Source: Daphnia pulex (Eukaryota > Arthropoda > Branchiopoda > Diplostraca > Daphniidae). From it: a stretch of 64,000 bases of DNA. Shown here one piece after another: positions 30,739-44,900 of this stretch. Below the pieces are notes generated by a model. The model was not told the DNA's origin. It searched no databases and saw only the letters and a program-made list of their open reading frames with translations. The stretch is taken from NCBI RefSeq assembly GCF_021134715.1, contig NC_060025.1, positions 7,998,001-8,062,000 on the forward strand, given 5' to 3'. Within the stretch, counting starts at the first letter, position 1. Each line of letters opens with the position of its first letter. The translations under genes and the position numbers were made by a program.

Positions 30739-33700
30739 TCACATTGGCTGGTGGTGTTGTTGCTGTTGTTGCGGCTGTTGTTGATGATGCATGTGTTGGT
30801 TGTCGTAGCCGAGTGCCATCGGATTGACGGCATTGTTAGATCCGGCTACAACCCCGCGCTGCAAGACTTCCTGGGCCGGAGGGCAATGCGGCCTCGGTCC
30901 AGGCTCCGGTGTGTAGGTGAACGTCAACCTGGTGGCGTAGATGACACCGTCACTCCTCACCAAAGATATGGGAACCTACGAAAAAAAAATGACATCAATA
31001 AATCTGGAAAAAATAAGAAAAGACAAAACGGAATGAAAATGAAAAGTACCTGAGTCGGTCCGCGGACCCACTGCCAACCGGAACGGAAAGCTGAAATATC
31101 GGGCACGACGCACAGCATCGACTCCTCACAGCGGAACATGGTCTCGGCCTCCACGTCGCCAAACCACACTTTCAAATTGGGTGTCAGATTTTCGCCCATC
31201 AGCTCCAACATGGCCACATCGCCGCCACCGTTCAACTATGAAAATACGAAAAGGCAAAAATTAAATTGACGGACTAGGACGGACTAAAACAAAAAAATAT
31301 GGTTGACGTCGGCACTAGCGGGATTCTTTTTTTAATTTAAAAATAATGAAACAAAAAAAAATGTTTGGGAGGGAGGATGAGGATAGTTGTGGAAAATTGG
31401 CGTTCCGCTTTGTTGGTGCCATCCAGCGTTGATTGTAGTGGTCGGTTGGTTGGTGGTCAACCTGCGACGGTCAACGATATAACAAATGTGTGGGAAAAAA
31501 AACGAAAAAGAAGACCAAGTAAGAGTAGGAGGAGGTGAACGGGATAAAAGGACTCTGAACAGCAGCAGCAGCAGCGACAACAAATCGCTCGCATAGTTTT
31601 CCCGTGGGAACGCATTCGCCACCCAAATTGGATAATATAACAAGAAAGGAGAAGAAGAAGTGAAGAACGAAAAGAAAGAAGGAAGGAAGGAAGGAAGAAG
31701 AACATCAGTTGAAAAAAGAAGCTAACCCCTCCCTTGTCACAATTTTTTCGTCTCGGGGGCCGAGCGTGAGAAGGTCCGTCTGGCATTCTCACGCCTATTT
31801 TCCATCCTGCCCGACGCCATTGGGGCATTTCTTTATTTTTGTATCTTATCTCCTGTCGCTTAGCCTCCCGTCAAATTTTTCCAACTTTTATCTCATTGAC
31901 GAATCGGACGCCAATAAAACAAGAAAAACGCAATCGACAGCTGAAAAAGGGACTCACGTGTAGCGAGTGGACGATGGGGACAGGGGTGACGGGACTGCGG
32001 ACGGGTCCCATGCCCTCGTAGAACTGGTACTCGGCCTTGTCGGTGCTGATGATGGTCCAGGCGGCTCCGTCGTTGATCATTTCCTTGTTGGGCTCCTTGG
32101 GGCACGGCGTCGCCTGGAACTGGATGATGCGCTCCTGGCTGAGGCACAGGTACATCCGCTCCGTGTCTTTCATGTAGAAGGCGCACTTGTGCAGCTGCGA
32201 GACGGGGTCGTCGGCGTCCAAAACGGCCATCTGCTTGTCCACTTTGCGGATGATGAGCCGGGGTAGGGCCATGCCCGTCACGCTGCACACCAGCTTGACC
32301 GTGCTGCCGTAATGGATGTAGCCGTCGCGCACCGTAAACTCTTCCGACTCGGATTCGCTGTCGTCCACTGCCGAAACAAAATTGAAATCAAAACATTTTA
32401 TTTTTGTTTTCAGTTAAGTCGAGAAACAAATGGCGGAATTTTTGTAGTAGATGCTCACATAAGTGAATGGTGAAGGCGCCCCATTGGGTGGAACTGGCGT
32501 GAAAATTGTTATTGTCCACGTGCAGGTAACGAGTGCTGACCGTTTGCGAGCGGAGTCGATTGAACAGGGCCACTTTGGTCCCGCTGGCGATGCACACTGG
32601 GAATTTTTACACAGTCAGATGTTAAGTCAATCGAGAACTGAAAAAATAAGAATCAAAACACTCACGATCGGCGTTCTTGAGCGACTGCTTCTTCTTGGAC
32701 GGTTTGGAAATGACTTTAATCCGCTTGCTGTGGAAGACGCCGATATCCTGGCCGTTGCCGTAAAACATTTTCACCGACAGCATGAAATGCTTGCGCTTGT
32801 CCGAGTCGGAAATGAACAGCGTCTTGGCCGCGCAATAACTCTGCCAGAAATCAAAATTCCCAATGAATAAAAAATTCCGGAATTGGTTAAAATTTGAAAA
32901 TTACTTTGCCGTTGAGGTCGAGTTGCTGCATGTCCTGATCAGAGTTGCCGATGCCGATGAAGGCGCAGAGCTGCGAGGCGGCTTCGGCTTCTGCGGGCGA
33001 GGCCCCGTTGGCGGCGGCTTCGCGCTGGATGGCCTCGCGCCTCCTCCGCCACCCGTCGCCGTAGAGGTAGATGCACGGCGGCGGGCAGAAGAAGCGCTTC
33101 TCGTTGCCGTACGACTTCTGGGCCACTTTAGCGTGCAGGATGACCACGACCATGTCGCCGTGCTCCTGCAGGTAGCGCATCATCGCCTCACGGGTCAGCC
33201 GCTGCTCCTTGGTTCCGCCCCTGTACGCCGATCCGGTCGGCCTATTATTTGATATAAATAATTCATTCAATCAAACTAATCCGGAATAATAATAATAATG
33301 ACGGCGACTTACCCGTATCGATCGATGGGCACCGGTGGCGACGGAGTCGAAAGAGGCGACGGCGGAGTCTGCAGAGTCGGAGCCATGGCCGAACTGGGAT
33401 GCGCCAGGGCGTAAGGGTTATGATGTTGTTGTTGTTGCTGTTGTTGTTGCTGAGCCCCCTGCTGCTGCTGCTGCTGGTGATGATGGTGTTGTTGTTGTTG
33501 CTGATTGAGCAAATGACCGCCGCTCAAATCGCCGGATGCTCCCACCACCTTGTCCGGTGGAGTCAAAGAGCCCGGAATCAATCCGCCCGCTCCGACAACT
33601 GTCAAAAAACAAACAATTCAAAATTAAAATTTCCGATCGAGATCAAAATGTCCTCCAAATGAATCAAATAGACAAACAATATCTGTTTGGAAGATTTTGT

Positions 33701-41945: not shown

Positions 41946-44900
41946 TTCTCCCTGCGAGTTGGAAAAAAAGTCAAGTTTCAAATTTCGCTTGCGAGTTTTC
42001 TCGGGGTGTTGGATGATGATGATGACGGTCGGAAGTGGACGCAGGAAAGTTCTCTCAAGTTGCAATGCGGATGAAGATGTTGTCAACACTTGGCCTTAGC
42101 CTCGGTGGCATATGGAGACATCACACAAAACGATTGCGCAAGTCAAACCAAAAATAAACCGAAAACACTCGGATGGATGGCAAAGTCCCCGGGAGTTGGA
42201 AGAAGATGAACAAACGAACGATTTTTTCGGAGGAACGACGGAAAAGAAGAACCTTCAATGGCGGATGGGCCGATTGTATTGTCTGTCGAGTCGATTCATT
42301 CCGCCGGATAATAGGAGAGAGAGAGACTCGCGGGAGAAGGGGGGGGGAATCGATCGAGCGCGCATGCAAAGGGGGAAGAGGCGGGAACTCGTGAACAAAA
42401 AAATTCGTGAGCGTGTGGATGATGAGAGCGACGCCGTGGCGTCGGCGGGAGTCGAGAGTGGGGGGTGGGGGAGGCGTGATGGTTGGGTTGACAACAGCCA
42501 ATGGGCGTCGGGACGTTTCCCATTGGCTCTGAGCGCCTAATCACGCTATACCTGAGCTTCTACCTGCGGGACTAAGCGGTCGGTGGGAAACCAGCACCTC
42601 CCACTGGACCTACACCCAGCCGAGCCGAAAGCCCCAAACGAAGAAAATCACGTCGCAATAATTATTGAGCGGGCCAGCTCTCTTCCTCTCAAGGCCTCTG
42701 CCCCCCTCGCTCATCTTTGTATGAACATTCGTCAAGGTCCATCGGACCTGCAGCCCCAACACCTTCCGGGACTTATATAATTATTTTTAATTATTTGAAA
42801 AAAATCATTCGACTTTTGGTTTGAATCAAAAATTATTAGCCAAATCAAATTGCGATTGAATTAAAGGATCGAAAAAGTAAATTGTCAATGCGGAAATGTT
42901 TACACACGATCATATTTGAATAAATAAGACGAAGCGCCAACATTTTGCTGTGACAACAATTGCTCTTACGGGTTCTCTCTCTTTTTCCAAACTGCACATA
43001 GAGAGGTGTACACTAGTATATGTATGTAAGTAGCCTATAAAAAAGAAAGGCAAAAAGGATTCGCACGGACATGCACGGTGAATTCGAGGACAAATAGTAC
43101 ATGCCGACGTCTATACATAGACAAGGACATGTGGACTGGTCATTTGCGTTCGTTTCAGAGATGCAACGAAGGCCGAATTCCTGATTTCAAAAACAAATGA
43201 AGAATGATTGCCATTCACGTTATAGGCTAGTAGAGCCGCCCGCTTCCTTCCTTCCAATTTAAAAATTTAAAAAATGGCGCGACAGAAATTTGGCTATTCA
43301 TCAAAAAATGATGTTCAAACAAATTGCAGATGAAATGAGTCGCAATTATTTTTTATTTGATTAGAAAAAAAAAGGAAATTGGGGAATGATTTAAAAAAAA
43401 AAAGATGACCAATGAGAAATCATATCGTGCTCTCAAGTCATCACGCTGTTATGACTAGTAGCCACACACGAACGCAATCTACTTTCGAAAAAGAATCGCT
43501 TCTTGTTTTTTGTTTTTGTCGGTTACCGAAATGTAAAAATATAATAAATAAATAAACAAGGTTGCGTAATAAAAAGGCAACGACCCTCACAAAGGCTGTG
43601 CGTTGGGTTCGGTGTGAACAAAAAATTGCGCTCTGTAAAGGCATTCAAAATGGGCGGGTGTTTCAAATGCAGTCTATCGAGGCATTCAAATCACCGGTGA
43701 AATTGATTTCAAAAATTAAAACGAAATTAATTGAAATGAATCCAAGTGTCGCCAAGTATTTCTCTACGGTCTCAATCCAAACCCGAGTCTAAACAAAATA
43801 AAATTTACAAAAAAAAAGAAATTGGGATGAAGAACAAGTGGAAAGAAGAAAATACGGGAGCAATTGTGTGTGTGTGTGTGTGGCATTGGAAAGGTGGGCC
43901 CTGTGTGTGCGCGACGTTCCGTCGTGTGGGAACGTCGGCATGATGAGCCTCTCACACACACAAACTCGGCAAACTTCCGGTCTATTCCATCCATCCTCTT
44001 ATCCCATCGCACACACGTAACACACACACGTATACAAGCTAGGGCCGTTTTCTTTCGTTCGTTCACTACTGTTAAACTTGCGAGACCTTTTTTCTTCTTC
44101 TTCTTCTTCTTTCGTTTCGTGTTTTTTCTTTTTTACTTTTTTAAGGAAATAATTACAAGCCAATCCGCACGGAAGGGGGAAACATTGTTGCCGTTTTTCT
44201 TTTGATTCTTTTTCTTTGATTCGAATATTTTTTTTTCGGCATATTGCAACCGATTGACCGCAATGACATAGACTCGGATCGATGTTTTCTTAATCACCCT
44301 TACGACTTTCTCACGATGGTGCTGGCCTCCCTCTCTCCTTCCGTACTCGAATCAAAAAATAGTCTCCACGCAACGTTATACAGGACCAGAGAGAACCAGG
44401 AGAGCTGGCGGTAGTCGGCAGCAGCGAGCGAGCGAGCGTCATCTGCATGCGCCCGGTAGTAAATATAGGAAGAGGCGCACAGCCAACAACAACATGGGGA
44501 CTGTACACGGCGCGATAGGATATATTTAATAATTCCAACCCCCCCATTTTTTCGCTTCTGTTTTTGTTTATTAATGGCCGACCGCAAAAGAGACGACGCC
44601 GATGAACAACGACCGAGGAAATGTTATAATGTCAGAGATGCGTGGGAAGCTCGAGGATGCTTTCACACCAATCAAAAAGAATTAAAAAAACTAAAAAAAC
44701 AAAAAACTGAAAATTCATTTTTCAAATAACGCTGGGCGCAAGTCGGAAATTTTTTATTTCCTTCCGATTTTGATGGTCGGAGAAAATTGTTTTTAATTGA
44801 TTACCGGGTGGGTAAATCGCACCACCTAAAATGGCCGCGTCTCCCGCACACACGCACAATGAAAGAAAGAAGAAAAAGTTGGTGCTGTTAAATGGTCGAT

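Follow-up and report, generated by a model that had tools for sequence, protein, structure and literature searches.

Dense Su(H) consensus sites at the Su(H) locus of Daphnia pulex suggest a dispersed autoregulatory region

Su(H) is the DNA-binding switch in Notch signalling, and the CSL proteins, to which it belongs, are usually treated as constant, ubiquitous adaptors. In Drosophila, Su(H) autoregulation in socket cells is described as being maintained by ASE5, a 0.4-kb module that carries five Su(H) sites and lies just downstream of the gene, and mutation of these five sites is reported to abolish its activity (PMC3390367). The same report defines high-affinity fly Su(H) sites as YGTGDGAA and places POU (Vvl) sites and an A motif in the ASE5 module (PMC3390367). 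The CSL gene of C. elegans, lag-1, is described as having multiple CSL sites and chromatin immunoprecipitation (ChIP) peaks, particularly in a large first intron that is also bound by many other factors; the positive loop of lag-1 is described for somatic LIN-12-dependent cells and reported to be absent in the germline (PMC7153901). This study examined the Su(H) gene of the crustacean Daphnia pulex, located in a 64,000-nucleotide stretch of contig NC_060025.1 (C9:7998001-8062000; hereafter the window), in which the introns and 5' flank of the gene are dense in exact copies of YGTGGGAA. We propose that these introns and this flank may constitute a dispersed autoregulatory region linked to Notch, a reading that we hold at a probability of roughly 0.7.

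A first-pass annotation, made from the letters of the window, had reported 15 YGTGGGAA and 6 YGTGAGAA between positions 31489 and 44648, with two YGTGGGAA elsewhere, and our script returned identical counts. The two outlying copies of YGTGGGAA lie at 12352 and 46494, giving 17 in the window, whereas YGTGAGAA occurs 11 times in the window, with 5 copies outside the region. The genome searched in this study (133,188,837 bp, 13 contigs) contains 6,709 copies of YGTGGGAA, from which 0.66 would be expected in 13,160 bp, compared with the 15 observed. Read backwards, the pattern has 3,780 copies, so that the word is commoner than its mirror throughout the genome. The Poisson probability of at least 15 copies is 8.6e-16, which becomes 8.7e-12 when multiplied by the 10,121 windows of equal size. 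Dinucleotide shuffles performed locally (500-bp pieces, 1000 trials) yielded a mean of 1.23 YGTGGGAA with a maximum of 6, and the count of YGTGAGAA (6 vs 1.14 expected) was reached in 1 of the 1000 shuffles. The ends of the region were set to hug the sites, which somewhat inflates its density; the best 10 kb of the window holds 13 YGTGGGAA. Contig C1 was examined over its initial 1.68 Mb, for which coverage of both strands appears complete; 76 copies were counted there, with a maximum of 5 per 13,160 bp. The maximum was also 5 across the 100 places listed, of which those further along are on the + strand only. The genome-wide count and the local-composition null, which the annotation had put forward as a check, confirmed that the excess of sites at Su(H) is real and beyond chance.

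Base composition, microsatellites or a local repeat could in principle make the word dense without any regulatory meaning. The G+C content of the region is 0.449, compared with 0.35-0.42 in most 2-kb steps across the rest of the window, and CA repeats are abundant in it. When Markov models were fitted to the region, those of order 1-4 expected 1.2-2.4 YGTGGGAA, and a model of order 5 expected 7.1, although a model of that order nearly contains the word. Against such an explanation, the shuffles of 500-bp pieces never exceeded 6 copies, and when the letters of GTGGGAA were placed after Y in all 105 orderings, the actual word had 15 copies and the runner-up 4. Thirty homeobox loci with a mean G+C content of 0.447 (the best 30 of 123 matches, with loci centred on exons) contained 5 YGTGGGAA and 5 YGTGAGAA in 95,097 bp, or 0.53 YGTGGGAA per 10 kb, and the difference between Su(H) and these loci was pronounced (P = 1.6e-10). 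The flanks of the 21 sites were unrelated, the best pair being identical at 24/60 positions and the mean being 14.9; therefore, the sites are not copies of a recent repeat. We rejected composition and recent repeats as explanations because the shuffles, the permuted words and the loci of matched G+C all fell short of the observed count and the flanks were unrelated; we regard an origin of this type as extremely unlikely.

The specificity of the excess was analyzed by comparing words with at least 4 copies in the non-coding region with a background of 140,097 bp (the 30 homeobox loci together with the parts of the window beyond 29-48 kb). The results revealed that GTGGGAA was the top enriched 7-mer (16 vs 1.1 expected) and CGTGGGAA the top enriched 8-mer (9 vs 0.24 expected), and that TGGGAA ranked third among the enriched 6-mers, behind two CA-repeat words. 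Among the 21 words carrying a single substitution at positions 2-8 of YGTGGGAA, the G-to-A substitution at position 5 had 6 copies and the other 20 words had 0-3, with 3 copies each for the T and C substitutions at position 5. The base preceding GTGGGAA was C or T in 15/16 copies, compared with 6,709/15,080 (44.5%) genome-wide (P = 4.9e-5). Variation at the locus hardly goes beyond what the Su(H) consensus YGTGRGAA allows. Nevertheless, a protein cannot be named from a word match, and GGGAA cores are common to other factors as well; another DNA-binding protein of similar preference, or a mixture of proteins, could occupy the sites, in which case it would be a coincidence that the word found at this gene fits Su(H). 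We consider this quite improbable, since the observed variation (Y at position 1, R at position 5 and hardly any other) matches that of Su(H) and since the classical Su(H) targets, namely E(spl)-like, HES and Notch loci, are dense in the same word.

These loci were examined in the same genome, with the HES genes picked by Pfam Hairy_orange (6 matches), independently of the sites. Three HES genes were clustered within 34 kb, and two 10-kb stretches of the E(spl)-like cluster contained 8 and 6 YGTGGGAA and 3 YGTGAGAA each. At another HES gene, a 9-kb stretch contained 4 YGTGGGAA and 1 YGTGAGAA, and six 3.1-kb HES loci, four of which overlap the longer HES stretches, contained 10 YGTGGGAA in 18,702 bp. 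The Notch gene, which was identified by a NOD match, carried 7 YGTGGGAA in 10 kb (C12:5078001-5088000); these read as lying in introns among and beyond the EGF-repeat exons, which were recognized by eye. The 10 kb beside one of three DSL-domain matches held 4 YGTGGGAA and 1 YGTGAGAA, and five 10-kb stretches taken at round-number coordinates held 0 and 1, respectively. Among the measured stretches of at least 9 kb, a small comparison set, Su(H) was the densest, with 15 YGTGGGAA across 13.2 kb and 13 within its best 10 kb. Su(H) is not alone among the core pathway genes in carrying dense YGTGGGAA, as Notch does so too. Separately, we observed that 3 of the 5 YGTGGGAA of the homeobox set fall within approximately 3 kb at one locus (C9, match at 2923313), a possible Notch target.

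The annotation had stated that the protein encoded at the locus is the factor that binds the motif, and Pfam and PDB matches identified the gene as Su(H). Pfam domains and a spliced open reading frame showed that the minus strand carries a complete Su(H)/CSL gene, and a profile search of the whole genome gave a single BTD match, at this gene. The nine common exons, E2-E10, joined at AG/GT boundaries into one open frame. Three candidate first exons (E1a, E1b and E1c) were each predicted to join this frame in phase, with a single terminal stop in each case, which would yield distinct N-termini of 9, 28 and 7 residues (starts 41945, 38165 and 35637). The 435-aa core matched eight Su(H)/RBPJ PDB chains with E values of 1.9e-245 to 9.1e-253, aligned full-length to Su(H)/RBPJ structures (842 bits for 6py8_C and 834 bits for 5e24_E) and matched worm LAG-1 with E=7.6e-157. 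Given this full-length agreement with known structures, the encoded protein is expected to have the standard CSL DNA preference. The BTD exon, scanned once each against viral_contigs and genome_contigs, returned no relative in either. The upstream neighbour on the same strand (48124-50306) reads as a polo-like kinase from its translation.

According to the predicted gene model, all 21 YGTGRGAA sites of the region are non-coding, and they lie in the introns and 5' flank of Su(H) as the annotation had described; coding sequence makes up 2,112 of the 13,160 bp. Eighteen of the 21 sites are intronic (4 between E8 and E9, 2 between E3 and E4, 5 between E1b and E1c, and 7 between E1a and E1b), and the remaining 3 lie upstream of the most 5' predicted ATG, that of E1a. 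Thus, 12/21 sites fall between the predicted first exons, that is, in the large 5' introns, and the sites upstream of each predicted first exon number 3 for E1a (4 with the copy at 46494), 7 for E1b and 5 for E1c. The coordinates of the exons and site groups are listed in Table 1. The copy at 46494, TGTGGGAA, lies beyond the region, between Su(H) and the upstream gene, and would fit a scheme in which the sites act on the transcription of neighbours or within a long-range Notch-response domain instead of on Su(H) itself. We give this scheme only a slight chance: 21 of the 22 YGTGRGAA of 29000-48000 are inside Su(H) or at most 3 kb upstream of the start codon of E1a, and the interval between 15672 and 31488, and with it the 3' flank, has none. 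The distances between neighbours among the 21 sites showed a further feature, with 5/20 falling within 325-335 bp (P = 0.001, 20,000 random placements); this observation was made post hoc, involves mixed orientations and is possibly due to chance.

Table 1. Exons and site groups of the Daphnia pulex Su(H) locus, in window coordinates
Feature	Position	Strand	Basis or content
Su(H) last coding exon E10, with stop codon	30739..30975	-	Spliced open reading frame
Su(H) exon E9, C-terminal part of CSL core	31050..31235	-	Spliced frame and PDB match
E8-E9 intron site group	31489..31793	.	YGTGGGAA 31489, 31603; head-to-head CGTGAGAA pair 31765 (+) / 31786 (-), 13-bp spacer
Su(H) exon E8, beta-trefoil DNA-binding domain	31958..32367	-	Pfam BTD E=2.5e-54; PDB 5e24_E 'Suppressor of hairless protein' E=1.9e-84
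Su(H) exon E5, LAG1 DNA-binding domain	32905..33241	-	Pfam PF09271 E=9.2e-25
E3-E4 intron site group	33850..34356	.	CGTGGGAA at 33850 (+) and 34349 (-)
Predicted alternative first coding exon E1c (MPLAKPL), phase-0 donor	35617..35637	-	Spliced frame 807 aa, without internal stop
Site group upstream of E1c, in intron after E1b	36040..37569	.	YGTGGGAA 36040, 36389, 36714, 37236, 37562
Predicted alternative first coding exon E1b (MPDVAPSS...)	38082..38165	-	Spliced frame 828 aa
Site group upstream of E1b, in intron after E1a	39085..41444	.	YGTGGGAA 39085, 40430, 40702, 40976; YGTGAGAA 39411, 39746, 41437
Predicted most upstream first coding exon E1a (MNDAYLDTQ)	41919..41945	-	Spliced frame 809 aa
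5'-flank site group	43925..44648	.	YGTGGGAA 43925, 44641; YGTGAGAA 44308

Three results make autoregulation the most economical reading: the identification of the gene as Su(H), the specificity of the excess for the Su(H) consensus, and the enrichment of YGTGGGAA at further loci of the Notch pathway in this genome. Under the proposed mechanism, the Su(H) protein would bind many exact consensus sites within its own gene. In the absence of a Notch signal, Su(H) together with a co-repressor would hold the gene at a base level, whereas in the presence of the Notch intracellular domain it would raise its own transcription; both the dependence on Notch and the positive sign are presumed here. The output would come from two or three alternative promoters, the use of all three being likewise presumed, each with 3-7 sites a few kb upstream of its predicted first exon.

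The arrangement and surroundings of the sites were also analyzed. The Su(H) paired site (SPS) consists of two sites placed head-to-head with 15-17 bp between them. With spacers of 0-30, the genome contains 27 head-to-head YGTGRGAA pairs (8 for the backwards control) and 12 tail-to-tail pairs (16 for the backwards control). Five of the 27 head-to-head pairs fall in the fetched E(spl)/HES stretches, with spacers of 8, 8, 9, 17 and 17. The pairs of the E(spl)-like cluster lie at L046 3664-3688 (9 bp), L046 5174-5197 (8) and L047 8830-8853 (8), and those with 17-bp spacers lie at L047 2403 and L048 4367. Elsewhere, YGTGGGAA forms two head-to-head pairs, with spacers of 10 and 7, within 335 bp at C5:11035381-11035714, approximately 55 kb beyond a DSL-domain match. 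A 5-kb stretch that was chosen for its two head-to-head pairs, and that is therefore not a fair control, held 4 YGTGGGAA and 1 YGTGAGAA. Near the sites of the Su(H) locus, GAGAG was denser, with 30 copies compared with 26 far from them (8.1 vs 3.5 per kb), a count that includes overlapping words in GA repeats.

Several results weigh against a Notch-linked autoregulatory region. The only head-to-head pair at the Su(H) locus, in the E8-E9 intron, has a spacer of 13 bp and not the 15-17 bp of the SPS, and approximately 0.2 pairs of some spacing up to 30 would be expected by chance from 21 sites in 13 kb; we therefore rejected a canonical paired site as the core of the array, as the single pair may be due to chance. 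None of the partner motifs sought near the sites (two E-box forms, the N-box, HES, two POU words, GATA, Runt, Grainyhead and the fly A motif) was clearly enriched there. The proneural E-box RCAGSTG occurred at 0.54 per kb both near and far from the sites, CANNTG was lower near them (2.97) than far from them (5.45), and the POU word AATTAA had no copy near the sites and 9 far from them; RYRYAAAT had 1 and 4 copies, respectively, and no exact copy of the fly A motif AACGCGAAGCT was found beside the sites. The sites are spread across 13 kb and do not form one 0.4-kb module as in the fly. The pathway-wide pattern is also uneven, since two of the six 3.1-kb HES loci have no YGTGGGAA and the 10-kb Notch stretch has no YGTGAGAA. 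Finally, nothing in the sequence sets the sign of the feedback. This last point would suit a gene product that binds the sites yet chiefly represses its own gene, through default repression or negative feedback, so that its level is kept constant rather than raised. Such self-repression seems unlikely, given that both published precedents, fly ASE5 and lag-1 in the worm soma (though not the germline), read as positive.

The annotation had proposed an autoregulatory, Notch-responsive circuit that is independent or rearranged in crustaceans. Autoregulation is favoured by the consensus-specific excess and by the enrichment at Notch-pathway loci, whereas an independent or rearranged origin found no support: lag-1 has a similar intronic placement, and the fly is only one point of comparison. 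An old ecdysozoan loop with shifting enhancer positions may explain the three cases at least as well and is at least as likely as an independent or rearranged crustacean circuit, given the CSL sites and ChIP peaks that lag-1 carries in the first of its introns, a large one; the crustacean circuit is possible but not favoured. A broader proposal, which we advance only tentatively and consider doubtful, is that intronic arrays of self-sites in CSL genes are ancestral to Ecdysozoa, from nematodes to crustaceans, and were relocated in flies, and that in this Daphnia genome they may be part of something more general, arrays of the pathway's own site being present at the core pathway genes Notch, a DSL ligand and E(spl) as well as at Su(H), where they are densest.

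CSL self-regulation is already known in the fly and the worm, and the present locus suggests a crustacean as a new lineage. A search of the open-licence literature found no publication on self-regulation of a crustacean Su(H) gene, which is weak evidence that none exists. Strong self-targeting of a CSL gene in a third lineage, if true, would suggest Notch control of CSL dosage across much of Ecdysozoa. The Su(H) locus is small and well defined in a tractable crustacean, and it is suited to asking whether the feedback is old or has arisen repeatedly. The clean substitution profile further suggests that site clustering alone could flag direct Notch targets in this genome.

Compared with the described systems, the Daphnia locus shares two features with the Notch-response elements of the E(spl) complex, namely head-to-head pairing and a high density of YGTGGGAA (8 and 6 per 10 kb at the E(spl)-like cluster of this genome), but the spacer of the Su(H) pair (13 bp) differs from those of the E(spl)/HES pairs (8, 8, 9, 17 and 17 bp). 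As with Drosophila ASE5, a CSL gene has several high-affinity sites at its own locus, self-activation through such sites being the feature of the fly. In contrast to ASE5, the Daphnia sites number 21 over 13 kb, in introns and upstream with none downstream, and the locus lacks the A motif and POU enrichment. The sites resemble those of C. elegans lag-1 in occupying large 5' introns of a CSL gene, whereas Daphnia has three candidate promoters, each with its own group of sites. In the placement of its sites, the Daphnia gene is closer to worm lag-1 than to the fly.

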